A stretch of DNA of 64,000 bases. Origin: a virus. Location: positions 41,465 to 105,464 of IMG/VR virus record IMGVR_UViG_3300031952_000005; one strand, written 5' to 3'. The position numbers were made by a program, and so were the translations under genes. The notes beneath the pieces were generated by a model. The model searched no databases, was not told the DNA's origin, and worked only from the letters and a program-made list of their open reading frames with translations. Positions 1 through 59,324 of this stretch are shown in pieces. How positions within the stretch are numbered: position 1 is the stretch's first letter; the number at the start of each line of letters is the position of its first letter.

Positions 1-3000
1 TTGATTCTTTAGTAAACATAGACTCACCATTACGTAGTTCATTGATACTTCTTTGTAATTTATCAAATGATATAAAAGTTGGATTAATTTTCTTATACAA
101 GTTTACTAATGAACCTGCGTTTCTAATACCCCATGTTTGCTGTGTTTGTTCTTTATATAACTGTAATAATATTACTTTCTGTGCTTCATTAGATAATAGA
201 GTAGTTACACCTTTTATATGAGAAGATACAGTAAATCCAATATCTTCAACAGTAAGGGTGTTACTTTCTAGTCTACTTTCATTAAGAGCATTCTGTTGAA
301 AATCAATCATCAAGTTTTCCTTGTTGATTTTAACATTACCAGGAAATGAATCTTGTGTAATTAATCCTGCATCTTTTAGTTCATTTAATAATGCTGCATT
401 ACCATTGTTTTTGATAAAGTCTTCCATTTCAGTTTTTAACTCATTAGTCAAAAACTTGAACTCAGTTGATATAGAGTCACTTACTGCAAAACGAGATGCT
501 TGTACTTTATTAATTGCATTGTTAATTTCTGGAATAAAGTTAAATCCAAATGCAAATGCGGGATCTAATCCAATACCTATCATTGCAAGAGTAACTCCTG
601 TATTTATTTCATTCATTCCAAGTGCTGCTGGAATAGGTTTTTTCATACCATCTGCAGCAATACCTAATACAACACCATTTAACATGATTACTCGTTGTCC
701 ATTTTTGTTTATTACACCAAATTTAAAAAGATTATTTTGTGTAACAACTGTACTACCATCTGATTGTAAATCATTACTTGCATATTTCCAAATTACATTA
801 TCAGAATTAAGTTCTAATTCATACTGACTTGCAAGTGCCAAGAACTTCTGCAATGATGCAGCAATACCAATCATGTCTTTGTATGCAGCACCTAATGCTT
901 TAGATTCAATAACTGATGTAATTGTGTTGGGATCAGACTTAGGTCCAAAGTTATCAAGATCTCTACCATATCCTGTTACAATACTTTCAAAATATTCTGT
1001 AGAAGAAGTCTCGTGTATATACAAGTTTTTAAATACTGCTTCGTTAGATAGTATATCTATTTTTGCTTGTAAGTTTTTATTTTGATGTATTGGTAGTACT
1101 GACAAATGATTTACAATATTACTATCAAAGTTTGCTTGGTCTACTGGTAAACCATATTTTTCAAATACTTGCAGTGCTGCTTCTATACGTAATGAACCAT
1201 TTGCAAAAGTTCTTAATCTACGTTTTTCATCACGTGTCTTTTTAAGATCTTGATATGTTTCATCAAGTTCAGTTTTTAAATCAAAATGTTCTTTACCAAA
1301 TTTTCTACGATTTGCTTTTGCAAGATAATCATCAGGATCATTTTCTGTATCTTCAATAGATTGAACAAATGCTTGTTTAACTACTTTTTTTTCAGATTTT
1401 ATTTGTTTAATATCATCTTGTAAATCTTCTTCATAACTTTCGAGTTCTTCATATATACCTGAAGTCATTGCTTTAATATAGTCTTCTTGAGTGTATCCCA
1501 TTGCATACATAACTTCTAGAGCATTTGCACTTACAGAAAAATTATTTGTTTCAGTTAATGCTTTTCTTTTTGCACTGATCAACTTTCTAAAGTTTTCATC
1601 ATCTGCCCTGTAATGTATGTACTCAATAAACTTACCTTGTGCAGGAGATTTATAAATGTTATAGTTACCATATTTTGCGTAGTCACCAACAGCATTTACA
1701 TAATGAGCAAATGTTTGACCATAAAGTGAGTCAACGTCAAAGTCAGATCCAGCAAGTAAGTGTATAAATTGTGGTACAATAATACTATTTATGTGAGAAC
1801 TATCTATATAATCTACCACTTTTAATACAATCATAGAACGTTTATCCTCAGTAGGAATACGTAATGCAAACATTTCACGAAGATTTTCCATAAAAAAATC
1901 TTCTTGTTGTTGACTTCTAAAAAATTGTTTTGGTAATATACATTCTACAAAGTATTTTTTACTAACCAGTTCTCCTGCATCATCATATTCTGCTTCTATA
2001 CGTACACCTAATGGTCTTACTTTTGTATTACGATATTTTCCTGGATTATTTCTGTATTCTTCAGTTGTTATTACTTCACCATTTTCATCTTCTCTTACAT
2101 CATAACCAAATGATGATACGTGAATGTTTTTAAATCCAGAACCTTTTTCATCTGTTATATGCTTACTATAAAGCGAAAAGAAATAATATTCTAGCATACT
2201 TCTTATTCCAGGTAAGTTAGGACTATGAACTGGTTTACCAAAAGCATCAACATCAAATAGTTTTAATACTGAAGATGGTGCATTCTGTTGCTCAAGATTT
2301 TCTCTTATTAAATCAAATACTTTACCTAAATCAAAGTCTTCACCTTTACGTAAAAAGTGCTGTAACGACTGCAGATTAGAATCAGAAATATCATAAAGTG
2401 ACTCTTGATATTTAAGAAGACTGTCACCTAATTCATTCATTGCTTTTCTTTCAGTAGAAGACATAATTGTACCCGCCTCTGCATGACGTTTGTTTGCAAG
2501 TTCTTCTATGTAATTTAAATCTGCAGGTAATAATATTTTACCTTGTACAGAGAATCGTGCAGTGTCATGTACACCAGAAGTTTCTACTTGAAGATACTTG
2601 TCTTCATTGTTTACTTTTAATGATGATATATTTAATGGTAAGTAGTCATTATCAGCATGTGCAAAATAATCAACAGGAAGTTTTGTAGCATTTTTAGATG
2701 CTTCAGTATCCATGATTTGATCAATATTATGATACTCCATAGAATTTAAAATTTTATGCAATTTTATTCTATTTGGTTCATATTTTGCATGTATCTCAAG
2801 ATATGTTTTTTGAATTTGTTGTTCTAATTCTTCAATATTACTGCTTACACTACCATCTTTGTTTATCTTATGATGTTCTTGTATTTGTTTACGTAAGGCG
2901 TATATAGTCATGTATTTGTCATGCAAATTATCATATACTTGATCACGAGTCATTCCTTCAGGTATAATTAATATACTTACATCATTTCTATCAATGTAAC

Positions 3001-6000
3001 TTTCTGATTGTTTGTGATAAATATTACGAGAAGCAGTAACAGTCTTTTTAGGATTGTTTACTACTTTGTTTTTTTCCATTTTGAGTACTTCTTCTTCAGT
3101 AAGTTCACGATAATGTTTTGCAATTATAGAATGCAATATCTCAGGAGTAAGTCTTCCTAATGATTCATGCATATCTGCTTGATGAAACAATGATGAAATA
3201 CTCTGACCATCAAATACTTTTTGATTTAGTTTAAAGTTCTCATAGATTGTTTTACGTATTGTTTCATCTGGAATTTGAATATCATCTAGTACTTCTTGTG
3301 GAGAATAAAATGGACCATAATTAGGATGTTCTTCATTAATATATCCAAACAATGTGTTAAGATAAGCAACTGTGTGTTTACCTTCTTTCATTGTACTACC
3401 AGATGCAAGAAACTTTTTATTACGTTTAGTAGAATCAATACCATCTTTAACGTTCATTGCTTTATCACCTGTATACAATTCATTTACCATTAGTGAATTA
3501 TACCACTGATTGAAAAAGAAATCTGCTAGTAATCCATTTAAATCAGCACGAGATTCTAATACACCTTGTACATTATAGTTTGGTTTTGTATTTGCATAAA
3601 CAGAAGTAGTACTTACTGCAAGATTGTTATCAATTTTTAAAGTATCAGCAATAAGAGAAGATGTTAAGTATCTTAACGATGGTTGTTTTGTTTCAAACAC
3701 TACAGGATACCCTTCTTCTTCAATAACTTTTCCTGTTGCAGGATCTTTCTTAATTGCTTTTACAGATTCTTCTTTTTCATTTACAACACCAAGTTTTTTT
3801 AAAGTGTTAATGTATGTGTTTAGTTCTTCTAACGCAAAATCATTTAATCCTTGACGTAAATCTGCAAGTGTACTTTCATCAATGTCTTCAAAGGATGCTT
3901 TGTCATCTTTAGCATACTCTAGTAATTTACTAGTAAGTAACTCATTTTTAGCATTTGCAAAAAAGTATGGTAAGTAATTAAAGTTATATGCTCTTAAATT
4001 TTCACTATCAACAGTTGCTCTTGTTTTATCATCCTTGCTTAGTACACCATTGTAGTTATTAATAAGTTTGTTAGAACTACCATCATCAAAGTTTTTTTTG
4101 TTAACCTCTCTTCTGTTCCATTCTTTTTTGATTCTGTTAAATTCTTGTTTTACTTTTCCTTCTAAATCATTTACAATTTTTAAATTCTTACCATCTTTTA
4201 CAAGACCATTTTTATCAGCGTATGTTTGATAAAGAGATGTAATTAAAAAGTTTGTTTGAGATGCCTCAAGAGTATCAAATGTACGAAGGAATGTCTGGAT
4301 ACTTGTTTTAGGAGTAGTTATGTTACCATCTTCATCAACAACAGTTTCATATGAAGAAACAGTTGTTCTTTGTAAAAATGATAGTATACTCATTACATGG
4401 AATGATTGTTTATCAAGTTTACCAAAAGTTTTACCTTCCTTGTATGTCTGGTTATTCATCTGAGCAACTCCACCAAACAATGATATGTTAGTATTGTCTA
4501 ATAGTAACTTAGCAATTGTTGCTTGTTTACTAGTTTTGTCTTTTAACAAGTCGCCAAATAATGGATTGTCATTATAAAAGTCTTCTAAGAAATCATCATA
4601 GTATGGATCAGTTCTTAATGTATCTTTTAATCCTTCTCTTCTTAATGATTGACCTGTTAAAATTAATGGTGTATATTTCGTATAACGATACACAGGTTTA
4701 CCAGCAGCATTACGAAATACACTTGGTAAATCAGTTGCATCATATTTTAATATGTATTTAGCAAATCTAGTAGAGATGTTAAAGAATGCACCTAAGTTTT
4801 TATTATTTTCATCAAGTGTTTTTCCAAATGCGTTTGAACTAATAGACTCATTTATTACTGGATCATATATTGATTTTATACTTCTAAAAAATTGTTTTTC
4901 AAGATACGCTTTATCAGCAATCATTGCAGAATTTGTAGCGTAATGATCTAGTGTCTTCTTGTCTATGTTTTCAAGAGCACCGTTAAGATTGTCAATTTTA
5001 TCTATTGCAAGAATAGACATTCTGATTAATGATTTTGGTAATGTAATGCCTACATCTTTAAATGCATTATACAATTCAAATGTCATAGTTTCCAATACTG
5101 TATTTGCATTTAATAAACTACCTATAAGTATTTTTTTATTAATAATGTTTTCAGATAAAGTAACAAGTCTTTTTACTGCAGTTACATATTCAGGATCAGT
5201 TCTTTTTTTAGCGTGTGTTGTTATCATAGATGATACCATGTCACGTCTTTTCTTTAATGCATCTGCTTGAAGAACTCTATCTGTTAATGTAAAACTTTCA
5301 ATATTATTACCTGCTTCTTCAATTTCTGCAGTTTTTAAACGAGCATTTAACATTACATATTCTATTTCAGTACCATGAAGTACATCTATAAACATATTAT
5401 ATAATTCTTTGTTTGTTGATGGATTACCATTGGTATCCATTCCTGTGTACTCTTTTAACTGATTGTAAATTGCTTGTAAATCAGCAGCTGCATCAAAATT
5501 ACCATCTTCTTTATAGATTTTAGCAGTAACTTGCATATTGTTTATAATCTCATCTACTTTGACATCAGCTGATATTTTTAGTAATGAACCAAAAATACTT
5601 TCTCCATCAATTACTCTTGGAAATAGTATACCAGATTCTGTATCTTCTTTCTCATAACTTATAATACCAAGAAATCTTCTTAATTGTCTTGGAGCTGAGT
5701 CAAGTCTGTTGTGCTCACCAAATCCTTCATCAATATTTATATCATCAGAAATTTCTTCACCATCTTCAAAGTCTTCATCAACTTGTGACTTTTTTTCATT
5801 TTCACCTGCTAATTCTTTTAACAGTGTATTTTTATCAATTGCTGTACCAGTACCATCCAGTAATGAATATAACTCTTGAGTTTTTTTCTTAACTAGTTTT
5901 TTTAATACTTCAACAGATACTTGTCCAAGATTATTATCTAAAGGATCTGCTTCATATTGTTTTACTTTATTTGGTAATACTTTACCCTTGTATGCAGCAT

Positions 6001-9000
6001 TGCCTGAGTTATTTATATCATTAACAGTTTCATTATTTAACCTTGCTCCTAACATAAATCTATATTGAGAAACAAGATTGCTATATTGTTCAAGAACTTG
6101 TTTTTCTTTACCAGGATTCTTTTTAATCAATTCATCAAGATTATATACTTTTTCAAGTAACAATGTTTGCGCTGTTTTAAATTTTGCATCAAAAGTTTGT
6201 CCAGATGTATTTTCAATAACATATTTTGTCATCATATATACCAACTGATTTTGTTCAGCTTTTAATAATGTTGTAGGTGATTGACTAACGCCAGATGATG
6301 AATACTTGTCGTTAATAATTTTTTTCAATCCAGGTATTAACTCATATGCTGCTTGTCCATCATATAATTCAGATTGTATTTGTTCTGATTTATAGTATCC
6401 TCTTTTGATATTCTTGTATGTACTGTCAACTAGATTACTTCTTTGAGTAAACATGTCAATCAGTTTTTTTAGTAACTCAAATAATTTTGCTACAAGACCT
6501 TGTGGTTTTGTATTTTTATTCATGTAGTTTTGAAAACCATCTGCAAGAATTTCTTCTGCTTGTAACTGAAACATTTTATCATACTCATACACATAGTTTT
6601 TTTCACTTGCAAATTTCTTTAATGCTGCAGGTGTAAATGCACTCTTGTGTTTTTTATTAGATGATACTGCATCAATTAATCTTGAACGTTGTTCTGGTGT
6701 CATCAAGTATCTAAACACACCATGAAATGCCTCGTGAAATACTACACCTTTTGACAAGATAGAGTTATTCAAATAGATAACTTTGTCTTTAAACATTCCT
6801 AGTACGTTACCATCAATACTTGACAAATCAATTATACTTGCAATTTCTTCTTGACTGATACCAAACTGAGGAAGATTTTCTTGTAACCATTGTACAGCAT
6901 TCTGTCTTTCTGCTTCTGTTTCTGTTTGTACTTCTGTATTAGAAATAGAAAACATTTCATTTTCAGGAATATCATCTATAGTAACATTATTACTGTCTGT
7001 TACAATAATAGGTTGAGCTTGTACAACAACAACGTTTTCTACAGGGTGCTGTGTAACTTCTAATGGACTTTTATTAGATAAAGGTATTCCAGCAGCAGTT
7101 GGAGATTTTGAAGTGATTACAAGACGATTTCTTGGTACATCTGATATATTAAAACTATTTACATTTCTTTCATAATCTTTTTTTGCTTGTGTGTCATTTA
7201 AATCTGAAAATACAACACGAGAAACTTGTTTACCTTCATCATCAATATCTACTACTAAATGTTTTGGTTCTGGATAGTCATTCATAAAGTTTTCAATAAA
7301 TCCAGGATATTTTTTACCATTTTCTAGTAACTGTCCAATAACTTTATTAATTATTAATTTTGAAAACCCTTCTTGTTGTTCTTTTATTGCATCAATTAAT
7401 TTTACTACATTAGGAGAAGAATTTGTATTACTATACATTTCATTTACCATGGAGTAAAACTTTGCAAGATCTTTTTGTTTGTTTAAATCTAATTTAGAAA
7501 ATGCAATATTTTCTGCAACAACATCTGCTACTAATGAAGCATTGCCTCTTAGTGTACTTGCAAATGCTATTATTTTTCCTTCTTCACCATTAACAATTTT
7601 ACCATCTACTACTCTTGGACCAAACGTAAAGTTAAAATCTGATTTGTTATCTTCTATAAAACCATACTTACTATCTTTTGATTTATTAGATGGTCGTACT
7701 TCAATTTGCAAATGTCCATTTTGATCACTTGCAAAATTTATAAATAATTCTACTTTTTTATTTGCTGATGCAAACGCTTTAAATTTGTAAACTTTTCTAT
7801 CAAATGATTGTAATTGTAATTTTCTATCAGCAGCATTTAATACATCAGATAACGTAGTTATAAATGTAGCAAACCCTTCTACTTGTGATAATACATTTAC
7901 AGGAGATACTGCTCGCCATCCATATGTACCATTATTATTAAACCTTATAATAATATGTCTCTGCGTATTATAACTACTACCTTTAAATATTTGATCTTTA
8001 ATGTATGAATCATCAAGTTTTATTCTAGAATCAAAATGTGAATTTACGTATTCTTCCTGTGTAACAATATCTTGTACATTACCTTGATTATCTTTTACAA
8101 CAATTCTTTCATTAGAATTTAGTGTATTTAATAATCTAAATTTACTTTGTTTTGCTTTTTCAGGATAGTTTCCATCCTTATTTTTTTTGTCAGAAAACTT
8201 AGTAAATGCAAATACTACATTACGCTCTTCTTCTTTTATAGTTTTACCAACCTGGTCAATAGTGGCAATAGTTAATTTACGTGATAAATTTGTTTCTTCT
8301 TCTATTACTTCAGAAAGATTTTTAATTTTTGTGTCACCTGTTTTTTGAGAACCAATGTTGTACTGAGAAAAGAATTGTTCTGTTACATCAACAGAATTTA
8401 CATCATCAGTAAACTGAGGTTCTACAATTGCTGATAGTTGCTCTTTAAAGTCATTGTATAACTCATAAGCGTTTTTCATTGTGTTAATATCGTTCTCATC
8501 TAAACTATCTGTAGTATTATCATTTAATCTTTTGATAGACAGTTCTTTAACTTTTTCAAGATGTACAGGATTTGAAAAATCTATTTTTTGTGAAGTGTTA
8601 TCACTATTTAAAAATACATAGTTATCTAATGGATACAAGTAAAATTTTTCACCAGTACCAATTATCTCACCAACTAATGCAAATTTACTTTCAGATTGTT
8701 GTGGTCTAGCAACTGTAATAACAGTTCCTTTTGAAGTTGATTTTAAATATTTTATTTGAGTTTCATTTTCAAATGTTTCATGTGTTCTGTTTGCAAGTCC
8801 TTTATATTTTGGATTAGTTGCAGCAAGTCCTTGTATTCTACTGATACGATCATCACCAACAGTACTTAATGAAACAGCATGTATTCTTACACCTGCTGAT
8901 GGAAAACCTGTTTTAGCAAGATTCTTTAATGCATCTTCAACTTTTTGTTGTAAACCAATTTCACTTCTTATAGGTTTAATAGTAAAGTTAGATGATATTC

Positions 9001-9799
9001 TATCCTGATAAAATTCTTGTTGTCCTTTGTTACTATTAGATGTATCATCATTACGTGCAGGTCTTTCTGTTAAAATATCTTCAGCATCAAGTTTAAATTC
9101 ATCACCATTTTCAGTTGTTATAAATAATCCTTCAGGTTTACTTGTTGCTTCAACCATGTTATTATCCTTAAATGTAACAAGAACAGTTTTTAATTCAGCA
9201 AGATCTGATATATCTCGTATTGCAATAAAATCAGATTGTTTATTTAAAGATTCTATAACAGAGGTCATTCGACTTAATAAAAAACTTTTGTTATCAAAAT
9301 TATTTATAACATCTCTTAGTTCAGATGTAATATAAATTAATATAGTATTTTTTGTTTCAAGATCTTCAAAATCATTTGTGTTAAAATAGTTATTAATCAT
9401 TGTGAGTACTTCTGTAAGATCATCACCAGTTATAACTTTTTTATTTTCAAGATTTAGTATTGCTCTTTGAATTGCTTCAACTTTTCCAATAGGTGTTTTC
9501 TTAACAGTATATAATGGAGATATTGAAGAAAGAAAATTATCAGCATCAGATAATAATATTTTTGCATCAATGATTTTTTCTGCATTTCCTACTTCATAAA
9601 ATGATTGATCTAATCCATTTAAACCAACATATATTTCTGCAATAGAAAATAAAGAAAGTGATTTTTCATAATTAGAAAGACCACTTTTTAAAATAAACTT
9701 TGCAGTATTGTCAAAGTTCTTATATGTTTCAGGATTTAGTTTGATTAAATTTCTTACAACTGATACAAATTTGTCAGTTGATAATTCACATTGTTTCAT
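1..9799 (-). CDS. Giant virion RNA polymerase, crAss-like (partial, C-terminus beyond window)
   Basis: An open frame runs from ATG at 9797-9799 to the left edge of the window, giving at least 3266 residues with the C-terminus outside. At residues 2686-2690 I read DFDVD within AGSDFDVDSLYG, preceded by ALRIPTEDKRSM and IIVPQFIHLL. This is the metal-binding signature of the crAss/phi14:2 single-chain RNA polymerases, which are injected with the DNA and transcribe early phage genes. At residues 1022-1026 the same chain carries HEAFH in KGVVFHEAFHGVFRYLM, a zincin-type HExxH helix, so it is a protease-like plus polymerase fusion. The gene is last in the leftward virion operon, 18 bp after the 1604-aa cargo gene. 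The catalytic motif makes the RNAP call strong. Peptidase activity is inferred from the motif alone. Confidence 0.9.
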   Translation of the reverse strand, partial: MKQCELSTDKFVSVVRNLIKLNPETYKNFDNTAKFILKSGLSNYEKSLSLFSIAEIYVGLNGLDQSFYEVGNAEKIIDAKILLSDADNFLSSISPLYTVKKTPIGKVEAIQRAILNLENKKVITGDDLTEVLTMINNYFNTNDFEDLETKNTILIYITSELRDVINNFDNKSFLLSRMTSVIESLNKQSDFIAIRDISDLAELKTVLVTFKDNNMVEATSKPEGLFITTENGDEFKLDAEDILTERPARNDDTSNSNKGQQEFYQDRISSNFTIKPIRSEIGLQQKVEDALKNLAKTGFPSAGVRIHAVSLSTVGDDRISRIQGLAATNPKYKGLANRTHETFENETQIKYLKSTSKGTVITVARPQQSESKFALVGEIIGTGEKFYLYPLDNYVFLNSDNTSQKIDFSNPVHLEKVKELSIKRLNDNTTDSLDENDINTMKNAYELYNDFKEQLSAIVEPQFTDDVNSVDVTEQFFSQYNIGSQKTGDTKIKNLSEVIEEETNLSRKLTIATIDQVGKTIKEEERNVVFAFTKFSDKKNKDGNYPEKAKQSKFRLLNTLNSNERIVVKDNQGNVQDIVTQEEYVNSHFDSRIKLDDSYIKDQIFKGSSYNTQRHIIIRFNNNGTYGWRAVSPVNVLSQVEGFATFITTLSDVLNAADRKLQLQSFDRKVYKFKAFASANKKVELFINFASDQNGHLQIEVRPSNKSKDSKYGFIEDNKSDFNFTFGPRVVDGKIVNGEEGKIIAFASTLRGNASLVADVVAENIAFSKLDLNKQKDLAKFYSMVNEMYSNTNSSPNVVKLIDAIKEQQEGFSKLIINKVIGQLLENGKKYPGFIENFMNDYPEPKHLVVDIDDEGKQVSRVVFSDLNDTQAKKDYERNVNSFNISDVPRNRLVITSKSPTAAGIPLSNKSPLEVTQHPVENVVVVQAQPIIVTDSNNVTIDDIPENEMFSISNTEVQTETEAERQNAVQWLQENLPQFGISQEEIASIIDLSSIDGNVLGMFKDKVIYLNNSILSKGVVFHEAFHGVFRYLMTPEQRSRLIDAVSSNKKHKSAFTPAALKKFASEKNYVYEYDKMFQLQAEEILADGFQNYMNKNTKPQGLVAKLFELLKKLIDMFTQRSNLVDSTYKNIKRGYYKSEQIQSELYDGQAAYELIPGLKKIINDKYSSSGVSQSPTTLLKAEQNQLVYMMTKYVIENTSGQTFDAKFKTAQTLLLEKVYNLDELIKKNPGKEKQVLEQYSNLVSQYRFMLGARLNNETVNDINNSGNAAYKGKVLPNKVKQYEADPLDNNLGQVSVEVLKKLVKKKTQELYSLLDGTGTAIDKNTLLKELAGENEKKSQVDEDFEDGEEISDDINIDEGFGEHNRLDSAPRQLRRFLGIISYEKEDTESGILFPRVIDGESIFGSLLKISADVKVDEIINNMQVTAKIYKEDGNFDAAADLQAIYNQLKEYTGMDTNGNPSTNKELYNMFIDVLHGTEIEYVMLNARLKTAEIEEAGNNIESFTLTDRVLQADALKKRRDMVSSMITTHAKKRTDPEYVTAVKRLVTLSENIINKKILIGSLLNANTVLETMTFELYNAFKDVGITLPKSLIRMSILAIDKIDNLNGALENIDKKTLDHYATNSAMIADKAYLEKQFFRSIKSIYDPVINESISSNAFGKTLDENNKNLGAFFNISTRFAKYILKYDATDLPSVFRNAAGKPVYRYTKYTPLILTGQSLRREGLKDTLRTDPYYDDFLEDFYNDNPLFGDLLKDKTSKQATIAKLLLDNTNISLFGGVAQMNNQTYKEGKTFGKLDKQSFHVMSILSFLQRTTVSSYETVVDEDGNITTPKTSIQTFLRTFDTLEASQTNFLITSLYQTYADKNGLVKDGKNLKIVNDLEGKVKQEFNRIKKEWNRREVNKKNFDDGSSNKLINNYNGVLSKDDKTRATVDSENLRAYNFNYLPYFFANAKNELLTSKLLEYAKDDKASFEDIDESTLADLRQGLNDFALEELNTYINTLKKLGVVNEKEESVKAIKKDPATGKVIEEEGYPVVFETKQPSLRYLTSSLIADTLKIDNNLAVSTTSVYANTKPNYNVQGVLESRADLNGLLADFFFNQWYNSLMVNELYTGDKAMNVKDGIDSTKRNKKFLASGSTMKEGKHTVAYLNTLFGYINEEHPNYGPFYSPQEVLDDIQIPDETIRKTIYENFKLNQKVFDGQSISSLFHQADMHESLGRLTPEILHSIIAKHYRELTEEEVLKMEKNKVVNNPKKTVTASRNIYHKQSESYIDRNDVSILIIPEGMTRDQVYDNLHDKYMTIYALRKQIQEHHKINKDGSVSSNIEELEQQIQKTYLEIHAKYEPNRIKLHKILNSMEYHNIDQIMDTEASKNATKLPVDYFAHADNDYLPLNISSLKVNNEDKYLQVETSGVHDTARFSVQGKILLPADLNYIEELANKRHAEAGTIMSSTERKAMNELGDSLLKYQESLYDISDSNLQSLQHFLRKGEDFDLGKVFDLIRENLEQQNAPSSVLKLFDVDAFGKPVHSPNLPGIRSMLEYYFFSLYSKHITDEKGSGFKNIHVSSFGYDVREDENGEVITTEEYRNNPGKYRNTKVRPLGVRIEAEYDDAGELVSKKYFVECILPKQFFRSQQQEDFFMENLREMFALRIPTEDKRSMIVLKVVDYIDSSHINSIIVPQFIHLLAGSDFDVDSLYGQTFAHYVNAVGDYAKYGNYNIYKSPAQGKFIEYIHYRADDENFRKLISAKRKALTETNNFSVSANALEVMYAMGYTQEDYIKAMTSGIYEELESYEEDLQDDIKQIKSEKKVVKQAFVQSIEDTENDPDDYLAKANRRKFGKEHFDLKTELDETYQDLKKTRDEKRRLRTFANGSLRIEAALQVFEKYGLPVDQANFDSNIVNHLSVLPIHQNKNLQAKIDILSNEAVFKNLYIHETSSTEYFESIVTGYGRDLDNFGPKSDPNTITSVIESKALGAAYKDMIGIAASLQKFLALASQYELELNSDNVIWKYASNDLQSDGSTVVTQNNLFKFGVINKNGQRVIMLNGVVLGIAADGMKKPIPAALGMNEINTGVTLAMIGIGLDPAFAFGFNFIPEINNAINKVQASRFAVSDSISTEFKFLTNELKTEMEDFIKNNGNAALLNELKDAGLITQDSFPGNVKINKENLMIDFQQNALNESRLESNTLTVEDIGFTVSSHIKGVTTLLSNEAQKVILLQLYKEQTQQTWGIRNAGSLVNLYKKINPTFISFDKLQRSINELRNGESMFTKES

Positions 9800-22245: not shown

Positions 22246-24264
22246 TTACAATTTATTTCTTGGATTTATTATGTTTTCTCTATAATATTCATCAAAGGGT
22301 ACAGGACCTCCTACCACTTTTCTTTTCATAAAATCTATAACAGTTTTACCAGGTGCAAGATATTTTGCCATTGATTGTTCATGTGGTAACTTGTTATTGA
22401 CATTTGCATATAACATTCCTCCTAGTTCTTGTATTGCCATTCTATCAAATCCTGTCATATCACTGTAAGGACTTGACAAGTCACCACCATTTTTTTGTTG
22501 TTGTAATGTTGCTGCTCCTACTGCTGCAGGAACCATTGCACCAAGTCCTATTTTATTTAAAGATTTTAATAATGCATTCATATCAAAATCTTCAACTTTT
22601 ACTCCTTTTAAATATTCATGTCCTGTATTCATTAAACTTTGCAGTTTGTTTTTGATTTCAGGAATATCTTTTTCTGTATAAACTCTGTTTCCTTTTATAT
22701 CACCAAGAGATGCTCTTAATTCATTTTGTACTGCAAATGCTTCTTCAGCAGGCATTCCAAAATCATTATTTTTTATCATAGGTTCCCAAGCTGCACTAGC
22801 AATTTTTTCTTCTTGCGGAGTTGCTTTTAATCTTATAGATCTACTATGGGTTGCTTCATGCATTGCATCAGTATAAGCAGATGTTGTTGGAATATTTGAT
22901 GTATTTGCTCTAAATTTATCAACCATTACTACGTCATTCATATCCCCATGATTATTTGCAAGATAGTTACCTCGTGAATTTCCTAACTGTTCTGTTACAT
23001 TTTCAGGATAATCTAAATTACCATTGTTTCTAAATGCCTGATATTCATTGTTTAACACAGGATCATCAATAAATCTTGCTTGTTGATTAGAAACATTAAA
23101 TTCTTGATTAGGTCTAAACTCTTGTAATTTTTGTCTATTAAAAGGTGAGTTTGAAAAAGCTGTAGCATCTGCATTAGCTCTTGCTAACTCTTGTTCTGCA
23201 AGTAACGCTTCTTTTTGTAAAAATGTAGGCGCAGATGATGTTGATATAACAGGTGCTTTTTTACCAAATCCAAACAAGTTTAAATCTATATTACTTGCAT
23301 TACCCATATTTCTTTTAGCATTAAATGCTGTTATATATGGATCTTCTACATATGGTGTGTATGTGTTTATATTTTTAGGTGCAGGAATAACATTACCATT
23401 AGCATCATAAAATATTGTATTTTCTAATTCTTTTGCAGCAGTATATTTACTACCCATAACATTTCTAAACACTTCTTCTTCTCTACTAATACCTGCTTCT
23501 CCTACCTGAGAAAGATATGGTTCTAATCCTTTTGCAGATTCTGCTACATATGGTCGATATTTACCAATTGATTCAGCAATTGAAGGAACTCTGTATTCTC
23601 CTGTAAACGGTAAAACTGTTTTTGAGTTTACAAACTGATTTGCTGCGGAACCAAGTTCTGTTAATGCTTTTTTAACAGGTCTTGCTACATATCCTAATGC
23701 TTGACTAACATAAGGACTTATTACTTCACCTACTGCACCTGCTACCAGTGGTTCACCAATTGCTTCAACGTAAGGCGTATACGAGTCTTCTTGTTGTGCT
23801 CTCAAAGGTGCTTGACCTAGATTTGCTGCCATTTTACCAATCCAACTTGCAGGATTTATGTAATCATCAACCACATTAGGTTCATCAGAAACTCTAAATT
23901 GTGATTCTAAACCTTTTGCAGATTCTGCTATGTTTTCTCTTGTCCAGTTTTCAGGATTTAAAGACACTGCAAACTTTTGATTTAAAGGATTTGCACTAGA
24001 TTTTTTTCTATCAATACCTCTTTGTACACCTGGAACATTTTGTATAGTTCCTTGTTTATCAATTAATGCTTGTACTCTTCTTTGTTCTATCTGTTGCGGT
24101 GTAAGTTGTATACCTACTTTTGGTTTAAAGTTAGGTGTGTTATCTTTAGTAGCAACTGCTATCATTCTTTCATCTCGAGGTACTATTTTACCAAGTTGTG
24201 CTTTTGGTAATTGATTATTAGAAAGAAACTTTTCTAAAATAAACATGTTTCCTTGACGTGCCAT
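22246..24264 (-). CDS. Virion protein with zincin-type HExxH motif
   Basis: A 672-aa protein. Residues 469-473 read HEATH (within DAMHEATHSRS), an HExxH zinc-metallopeptidase helix. About 35 residues later EEAFAVQNELRA could supply a third acidic ligand in a gluzincin-like arrangement, which is speculative. The N-terminus has NNQLPKAQLG, resembling the Gly-Gly motif tails of neighbouring proteins. An internal repeated phrase AESAKGLE occurs at least twice in the first half. It follows the 1338-aa peptidoglycan-degrading protein by only 4 bp and so is co-expressed with it. Possible roles are virion maturation or local proteolysis during entry; neither is proven. Confidence 0.65.
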   Translation of the reverse strand: MARQGNMFILEKFLSNNQLPKAQLGKIVPRDERMIAVATKDNTPNFKPKVGIQLTPQQIEQRRVQALIDKQGTIQNVPGVQRGIDRKKSSANPLNQKFAVSLNPENWTRENIAESAKGLESQFRVSDEPNVVDDYINPASWIGKMAANLGQAPLRAQQEDSYTPYVEAIGEPLVAGAVGEVISPYVSQALGYVARPVKKALTELGSAANQFVNSKTVLPFTGEYRVPSIAESIGKYRPYVAESAKGLEPYLSQVGEAGISREEEVFRNVMGSKYTAAKELENTIFYDANGNVIPAPKNINTYTPYVEDPYITAFNAKRNMGNASNIDLNLFGFGKKAPVISTSSAPTFLQKEALLAEQELARANADATAFSNSPFNRQKLQEFRPNQEFNVSNQQARFIDDPVLNNEYQAFRNNGNLDYPENVTEQLGNSRGNYLANNHGDMNDVVMVDKFRANTSNIPTTSAYTDAMHEATHSRSIRLKATPQEEKIASAAWEPMIKNNDFGMPAEEAFAVQNELRASLGDIKGNRVYTEKDIPEIKNKLQSLMNTGHEYLKGVKVEDFDMNALLKSLNKIGLGAMVPAAVGAATLQQQKNGGDLSSPYSDMTGFDRMAIQELGGMLYANVNNKLPHEQSMAKYLAPGKTVIDFMKRKVVGGPVPFDEYYRENIINPRNKL

Positions 24265-41331: not shown

Positions 41332-41997
41332 TTATGGTATAGGATTAGTTGTTAATATACTATTTAAACTTGAAGATGGTGACTGACCACATTTGTATAT
41401 AGAAGATATGTGAAGTACATATTCTTCATCTTGTACTATATTTGGACTTGTTATATTTAAAGTATTTGGTGTACCATCTACTTCAAGAGTTGATTTTGAA
41501 TAAATAGGATAACTAAAAGTAGTATCTGCAAGTGTGTAAACATTAATACTATATCCTGTAGGAGATTGTATATCAGGAACACTTGATTTACTCCAAGAAA
41601 TATCAGCTGATGTAGTTCCAATTGTATCAACAGTTAAATTTTCTGGAGCTAATAACACACATGCAATAAGACTTCCACTATTTGTGACTTCTATAATCTT
41701 GTTTCTCATGTCTGCTATTGTTACCCATAAATTTGTTATAGAGTCACCTATATTATTTACACTAGTTAACCATCTTGGTAATGCACTCATCGGGGATGAA
41801 GTATTCATTAACTGTGGTAAGTTAGATAAGTTAGGTATCTGTGCAGTTATGCCATTAAATAATGAAGTAGTAGTTCCTATTGCAGATGTTAAATTACAAT
41901 AGTTTCTTTCAAATGTAAAAAATGCATTTTGTATTAGTACTTCTTGTCCAGGTGTACCACTTGATGCACATTGAGATATAATGTAAATATTATCCAT
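41332..41997 (-). CDS. Fibronectin III-containing tail/fibre-associated protein
   Basis: About 221 aa, choosing the Met at 41997 (MDNIYIISQC). A longer frame starts at 42060 but would run through the preceding 74-aa gene, and the chosen start leaves only 2 bases between them. The first 100 residues look like a fibre connector, with NAFFTFERNYCNL and LPRWLTSVNNIGDS. From about residue 120 a fibronectin type III-like domain follows (PENLTVDTIGTTSADISWS, then TGYSINVYTL). The stop abuts the 551-aa adhesin, so the two are co-translated. It could join adhesins to the tail. Confidence 0.6.
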   Translation of the reverse strand: MDNIYIISQCASSGTPGQEVLIQNAFFTFERNYCNLTSAIGTTTSLFNGITAQIPNLSNLPQLMNTSSPMSALPRWLTSVNNIGDSITNLWVTIADMRNKIIEVTNSGSLIACVLLAPENLTVDTIGTTSADISWSKSSVPDIQSPTGYSINVYTLADTTFSYPIYSKSTLEVDGTPNTLNITSPNIVQDEEYVLHISSIYKCGQSPSSSLNSILTTNPIP

Positions 41998-58633: not shown

Positions 58634-59070
58634 TGGAGGTGAGGGGAGTCGAACCCCTGTCCAAATCATGCTTCAATAATACAATTTATACAGCTTTTAG
58701 GTAATCAACTTAGTTGACGACTCCACCACTCTGTTTAATCTAACAGAGAAATCTTAAATCTTTCTTACAGCGCTCCTAAAGAATTACCTCATGGTCTGTC
58801 ATCTGTTAAGATTCAGGGTTTCTGAGAAAGATTAATTTGCGACTACTATAAACCCTTTTTCGTCAGTTAATTTAGGCTGCTATACCAGTGTAAGACTCCT
58901 CATTTAATAATGAGAATACTTTGTTCATGTTAGCTTCTACTTGTGCGTTGTCTCCTTGAGATACTACACTTAAATTTGCATTGCCATTTAATTAAATTCA
59001 CCTTAGTTTACAGTTATCTCTCTGGCTGATTGTACTACTTACTAATAACCTGTCAAAACCAGTCACCCCC
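58634..59070 (-). ncRNA. ssrA: tmRNA with unusually long tag reading frame
   Basis: A transfer-messenger RNA of about 437 nt. The 5' end (59070) reads GGGGGTGACTGGTTTTGACA, closely resembling Bacteroidetes tmRNA starts. Its first seven bases pair with CACCTCC at the 3' end (58641-58635), preceded by a perfect T-arm AGGGG-TTCGACT-CCCCT. CCA is not encoded. A tag frame in register begins with GGC at 58985, about 86 bases from the 5' end as expected for the resume codon, and ends GGT-ATA-GCA-GCC-TAA at 58872. It encodes 37 residues starting GNANLSVV and ending NEESYTGIAA. Host tags are normally near 10 residues. Which codon is resumed cannot be proven by eye; a later GGA (GDNAQVEA) is possible. 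It rescues stalled ribosomes. Confidence 0.88.
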
Positions 59071-59079
59071 AGTATTAGT

Positions 59080-59150
59080 AGCGTGTTGTGGATTCGAACC
59101 ACCCCGTAGAGTTTATGAGACTCCAATGCAACCAGTTACACCTTCACGCA
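59080..59150 (-). tRNA. tRNA-Met-like (anticodon CAT), just upstream of the tmRNA
   Basis: A 71-base cloverleaf on the minus strand: anticodon arm GGAGT-CTCATAA-ACTCT giving CAT, and T-arm with TTCGAAT loop (GGTGG/CCACA, one mismatch). The D-arm is short (GTGT...GCAT), and the acceptor TGCGTGA/ACACGCT has five good pairs and two mismatches. CCA is not encoded. It ends 9 bases before the tmRNA, so both may be processed from one transcript. Imperfect stems leave open a modified or decaying tRNA, or an Ile-CAT type. Confidence 0.65.
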
Positions 59151-59166
59151 ATGTAACAGTTGTTTA

Positions 59167-59227
59167 TGGCACAACTGACTAAGCCTTCAGTAACTTTTGA
59201 ATACCCCCAGAGTTACAAACTGTGCCA
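59167..59227 (-). ncRNA. Structured element upstream of tRNA-Met (possible degenerate tRNA)
   Basis: Outer perfect stem TGGCACA/TGTGCCA (7 bp), inner stem GTAACT/AGTTAC (6 bp) and a short CTGA/TCAG stem give a three-way-junction-like fold of 61 bases, close to a tRNA in size but lacking a proper T-arm. An alternative tRNA reading with anticodon TGT can be drawn but fails in the acceptor. It could be a remnant tRNA or a processing signal in the GroES-tRNA-tmRNA transcript. Confidence 0.35.
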
Positions 59228-59324
59228 ACCTACGATTTGGAGGACCTCCACGCCAACACTAAAAAGTGCTTGTAATTCCTATCTTCGATACTTGCCAGTG
59301 CACTGTCAGAGGTCTAAATACTTT

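Follow-up and report, generated by a model that had tools for sequence, protein, structure and literature searches.

The DNA analysed here (the window) is a stretch of 64,000 nucleotides, positions 41,465 to 105,464 of the 105,464-base virus contig IMGVR_UViG_3300031952_000005. The window phage has matches to crAss-like phages in its portal, terminase and head protein and in a giant ORF; further genes have their matches in Flavobacterium phage FpV4. An open frame of about 3266 codons occupies window positions 1–9799 on the minus strand and runs off the window edge; it shows a weak match to a giant protein of the crAss-like phage cr128_1.

A tmRNA gene lies on the minus strand (Table 1). The region 59070–58634 matches Rfam RF00023 with 71.3 bits (E 9.6e-26; gathering score 47), and the gene was also called by ARAGORN. 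The tmRNA proposed by an earlier reading made from the letters alone (the sequence-only reading) is thus confirmed, and so is the exact pairing of the tRNA-like ends that it had described: the acceptor forms 7 of 7 pairs, including G3-U70, and the T-stem has 5 bp. Of the features by which a member of RF00023 is recognised, the following are present: a paired acceptor and T-arm, the G3-U70 alanine identity pair and a tag frame which lacks a start codon, is terminated by a stop and follows a recognisable resume context. CCA is not encoded, the gene ending with A73 at 58634. The neighbouring tRNA-Met is possibly co-transcribed with the tmRNA. A structured conserved RNA at 59160–59300 was also considered and found unsupported (fold z-score +0.5).

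Table 1. Features of the tmRNA locus, in window positions
Feature	Position	Strand	Basis
tmRNA gene, 437 nt, G1 to A73	58634..59070	-	Rfam RF00023, ARAGORN, acceptor and T-arm check
5' acceptor strand GGGGGUG	59064..59070	-	7/7 pairs with CACCUCC, including G3-U70
3' acceptor strand CACCUCC, followed by A73 at 58634	58635..58641	-	acceptor check
T-arm AGGGG-UUCGACU-CCCCU, 5-bp T-stem	58642..58658	-	T-arm check
Conserved pre-tag motif CAGAGAGAUAACUGUAAACUAAGGUGAA, at the position of pseudoknot 1	58997..59024	-	short stem compensatory in relatives
Tag reading frame: GGC resume codon, 37 codons GNANLSVVSQGDNAQVEANMNKVFSLLNEESYTGIAA, stop UAA	58872..58985	-	frame and relatives
Conserved tag core QVEANMNKVFSLL, mostly Q-[VI]-x-A-N-M-x-x-V-[FHY]-[SN]-[LI]-[LI]	58905..58943	-	79/80 distinct tags; residue tallies over 102 tags
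C-terminal GIAA, degron-like tag end	58875..58886	-	end tallies
tRNA-Met(CAU), 7 nt upstream of the tmRNA	59078..59150	-	ARAGORN

The tag frame runs over 37 sense codons, from the GGC resume codon (58985–58983) to a TAA stop (58874–58872). In the Bacteroidota hosts, translation resumes at ...TTTAAAC/GGC GAG AAT AAC TAC GCT TTA GCT GCA TAA (the slash marks the resume point), giving the 9-residue tag GENNYALAA. Most of the phage RNAs resume at TTAAA[T/C]/GG[C/A] or close variants, which is the host Bacteroidota context. However, the short tag of the Bacteroidota (about 9–10 residues, GENNYALAA type) was not found; the frame has 37 codons here and 24–50 in relatives. The sequence-only reading had opposed an in-register tag of 37 codons to known Bacteroidetes tags of about 9–10 residues. 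This is upheld by the resume context, by long frames in relatives and by an excess of third-position substitutions.

A search with blastn found the 5' part of the tmRNA in three groups of isolated phages as well: Fipvunavirus, whose host is Flavobacterium psychrophilum (tag GNTNNSVVSLEDNAQVEANMNMAFSLIREDVAVAA), Cellulophaga phage phi14:2 of the Steigviridae, Crassvirales (GNDTDNTQLKANMTVVHNILNGSDALIGSSVQKLAMVA), and Callevirus of the Pervagoviridae (GNNTNAVNAQIEANMEAVNAILNLEVAVGV). The isolate records of FpV4 and phi14:2 carry no tmRNA annotation, and in the latter the tmRNA region is annotated with small hypothetical ORFs. A 265-aa gene (2775–3572 in L267; about 22775–23572 in G000) is about 55% identical to a gene of Cellulophaga phage Calle, and is the only strong protein match noticed between its phage and Calle.

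Further relatives were collected in two scans. The first, blind to the tag, took as its query on IMG/VR just the RNA motif that precedes the tag, and found at least 120 contigs. The matches listed, together with the isolates and the window, gave at least 123 complete tags, of which at least 80 are distinct; their lengths are 24–49 codons, so that all are long. Among the matches listed, the other two frames are open in none of the 80 distinct tags. The second scan searched viral contigs with a degenerate DNA pattern of the core, leaving the gap length free, and found 54 contigs. It added 28 new loci, all 28 of them in frame despite the free gap. Pooling both scans gave at least 102 distinct tags of 24–50 residues. 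Comparison with other crAss-like phages and with hosts, as the sequence-only reading had suggested, shows that long tags recur in phages, whereas those of the hosts have 9 residues. The acceptor and T-arm, examined under strict rules, are intact in 129 of the 143 tmRNAs with enough flanking sequence, all 129 with G3-U70. The short pre-tag stem pairs in a compensatory manner in relatives (CAG/CTG, CTG/CAG, CTAG/CTAG, GAG/CTC). One contig of 105,181 bases, IMGVR_UViG_3300025853_000041, carries two long-tag tmRNAs with differing tags, GNTITTQETAQIEANMSVVHNILASKHLNDVVTGELQMAA and GNTTSTQETAQIEANMSVVHNILNDFQGVSQDTMGGQVLIAA (L313 and L340).

The tags share an inner motif. Among the tag-blind matches listed, Q-x-x-A-N-M-x-x-[V/A]-x-x-[L/I]-[L/I/M] occurs in 79 of the 80 distinct tags. 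In the pooled set the core is found in 101 of 102, but 22 of these tags were picked by the core, which leaves 79/80 as the independent figure. The sole exception among the 80 listed, L040, has a 49-codon tag and the pre-tag motif without the A-N-M core. Hydrophobic residues recur at fixed intervals in the core, which is placed 2–14 residues from the tag start and 8–31 from the tag end, between linkers variable in length and content; tag lengths vary by whole codons. Nearly all of the at least 102 tags end in a ClpX-type -AA, mostly VAA, IAA, MAA or LAA, and one family ends in AVGV, without AA. Some tags look mosaic; L060 and L117 join a window-type beginning to the end of another group. AlphaFold gave one helix over residues 10–36 with modest confidence (mean pLDDT 71.5, pTM 0.40). 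The core's helical hydrophobic moment was not significant (p 0.15); we therefore do not propose an amphipathic helix and claim no shape for the core.

The tag peptide is under purifying selection. When pairs with 60% or more peptide identity were pooled, the first, second and third codon positions showed 4139, 3736 and 6978 substitutions, with a nonsynonymous/synonymous rate ratio of 0.27, a crude count from non-independent pairs. Between the window and FpV4 alone, 20 differences fall at third positions against 15 at positions 1 and 2 combined. The A, N and M residues of the core are essentially invariant, while the codons of A and N vary synonymously (GCT/GCA/GCC and AAC/AAT) and the core ATG is present in 83 of 83 distinct tag coding sequences. 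About 100 distinct and related phage tags have this inner motif in common, which shows the long tag to be genuine and under selection.

We hold it close to certain that the 37-codon tag is real. A short tag, with translation resuming elsewhere and a 37-codon frame open by chance, has in its favour the 9 residues of ordinary Bacteroidota tags and the call of ARAGORN itself, which places a tag DEKGFIVVAN at 58864–58832. That position lies beyond the real stop. In phi14:2 the ARAGORN tag covers no more than a late segment of the long frame, so its placement is inconsistent, and the tag calls of this program are unreliable for this group of tmRNAs. Resumption near AAT-GAG-GAG, which the sequence-only reading had named as an outcome that would overturn it, disagrees with the relatives, where the conserved core lies upstream of AAT-GAG-GAG; no upstream frame breaks, the other such outcome, were seen in homologues. 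The frame is not a chance one because the relatives found by the tag-blind search all carry long frames at the same place, and the phage resume context is that of the host, with peptide conservation covering the frame from the resume codon onward. A short tag is hence extremely improbable. Only slightly less improbable is that the frame is kept for another reason, either because the RNA is structured where the tag lies or because the conserved ATG opens a small ORF. The ATG in all 83 distinct coding sequences and certain N-terminal codons which vary little would agree with this. However, the Q, A and N before the ATG are kept as amino acids despite synonymous changes, and neither RNA structure nor a small ORF fits whole-codon length differences and freely varying linkers. 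In particular, the small ORF was rejected, as conservation extends upstream of the ATG.

Counterparts of the core were sought elsewhere. Searched as an exact pattern, the pre-tag motif has no match in 84,980 genomes of bacteria and archaea. Of 21 phage records searched with a tag profile, 19 gave the tmRNA as the sole match (E 1e-8 to 1e-15), and the two short-tag crAss-like phages gave none. The tmRNA of the gut crAss-like Burzaovirus is permuted with a 13-codon tag, and that of the gut crAss-like cr128_1 has by inspection an 8-codon tag, GNTYRAAA; neither gave a tag-profile match. In cr128_1 (L005), an apparent unannotated tmRNA at about 1195–1645 was missed by ARAGORN. The same profile gave nothing at E < 0.05 in 200 Flavobacteriaceae genomes, and a separate search in 18 host genomes gave no source of the core; the best host match had E 0.08. 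Compared with PDB sequences, the tag had a chance match only (E 1.2). No SmpB gene was found in the 21 phage records, and no gene common to the window phage, FpV4, phi14:2 and Calle was found at the sequence level, at which diverged partners would be missed. Because these four long-tag phages have no gene in common, a host-encoded partner is favoured; judged by sequence, the factor that binds the core would more likely be encoded by the host than by the phage.

Compared with the Bacteroidota host tmRNA, the phage RNA has the same alanine-type tRNA-like domain and resume context (TTAAA[CT]/GG), and its tag likewise begins with G and has a hydrophobic-Ala-Ala end. The middle of the tag is phage-specific; the phage RNA differs in its tag of 24–50 residues with an inserted core and in its phage-specific pre-tag motif. 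The alanine identity, the resume context and the stop all follow the canonical pattern, so the RNA is expected to act together with host SmpB, the most likely way for it to work. The sequence-only reading had raised the possibility of a diverged phage rescue system, which is too strong a description for an RNA with canonical tRNA-like part, alanine pair and resume context, from phages in whose records no SmpB was found. Its other suggestion, an added degron or recruitment signal, receives comparative support from the invariant inner motif between variable linkers and from the retained -AA.

We therefore favour, with a probability of about 0.6 and by analogy, a tag that combines a docking element with a C-terminal degron and is used with host SmpB. 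The phage tmRNA would rescue stalled ribosomes through host SmpB and host alanyl-tRNA synthetase, adding a bipartite tag of 37 residues in which a short variable linker is followed by the core, a second variable linker and the hydrophobic-Ala-Ala end. Like the half of the E. coli tag that binds SspB, the core (Q-V/I-x-A-N-M-x-x-V-x-x-L/I-L/I) would first dock tagged proteins to a delivery factor or a protease, and the -AA end would be engaged afterwards. We infer here expression, translation and degradation as well as the docking role of the core. The E. coli ssrA tag AANDENYALAA is the precedent for such two-part logic, with an adaptor site and a ClpX-binding LAA (PMC8138137); the phage tag is longer and its core different and invariant. 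SspB is reported from certain proteobacteria only, so the comparison of adaptors is functional only, and cleaved RseA, which ends in VAA, is a ClpXP substrate (PMC8138137). As the core floats between its linkers, a docking element is suited whereas an arrest peptide is not, and a ribosome-arrest peptide was rejected on the distance from core to stop, which varies from 8 to 31 residues.

The tmRNA tag of Mesoplasma and Mycoplasma has about 27 residues and is read by Lon, in hosts without ClpXP. It resembles the phage tags in its length and in carrying sequence beyond an LAA-type end, and is not known to have any obvious sequence relation to them. With the Lon-read tag of Mesoplasma florum as a precedent, the core could be a degron read directly by a different protease of the host, Lon or some other AAA+ enzyme, and its hydrophobic residues at fixed spacing would suit this role. 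The phage tags differ in keeping a ClpX-type -AA almost throughout, which argues against the Lon-directed type, because a pure switch of protease would not need it; such a switch is unlikely. Less likely still, the tag might block host proteolysis or protect tagged proteins, the core clogging or titrating a protease or chaperone in competition with the host tmRNA system. The tag is phage-specific and one family lacks the terminal AA (AVGV), and a tag-less tmRNA-like RNA of phage DS6A inhibits the endogenous tmRNA (PMC11915505). However, the phage RNAs carry a full tag frame, unlike that of DS6A, and the -AA on nearly all tags suggests delivery to degradation.

Tags of trans-translation have been given as 8–35 residues long (PMC8012679), and their described role is to signal degradation. 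The commonest length is 10 in a 2025 tmRNA database which includes RefSeq viruses, and the accessible part of its description discusses very short tags and not long phage tags (PMC11915505). The tmRNAs of mycobacteriophages and Bacillus phage G are likewise genes on phage genomes; they belong to unrelated phages and hosts, and the part of their account available reports no long conserved tag core (PMC4131195). The tmRNA of Calle was counted, and nothing more, in a paper on North Sea phages (PMC8776804). The open-access literature, the body searched, yielded no description of long tags in phages; such tags may already stand in databases without comment. The phage RNAs form a tmRNA family marked by a long, conserved tag.

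Phage tags thus reach 50 residues and carry an invariant, selected motif in phages which otherwise share little. Such a widespread motif in phages with little else in common implies a specific conserved partner in flavobacterial cells. It is conceivable, though we would not count on it, that phages of Flavobacteria have re-engineered trans-translation, with a dedicated recognition element that, during infection, reroutes nonstop proteins to a particular host factor or an undetected phage factor, as a module exchanged between unrelated phage groups. If this were true, the tag would have a function beyond that of a simple degron. The question of why phages carry tmRNAs becomes testable.
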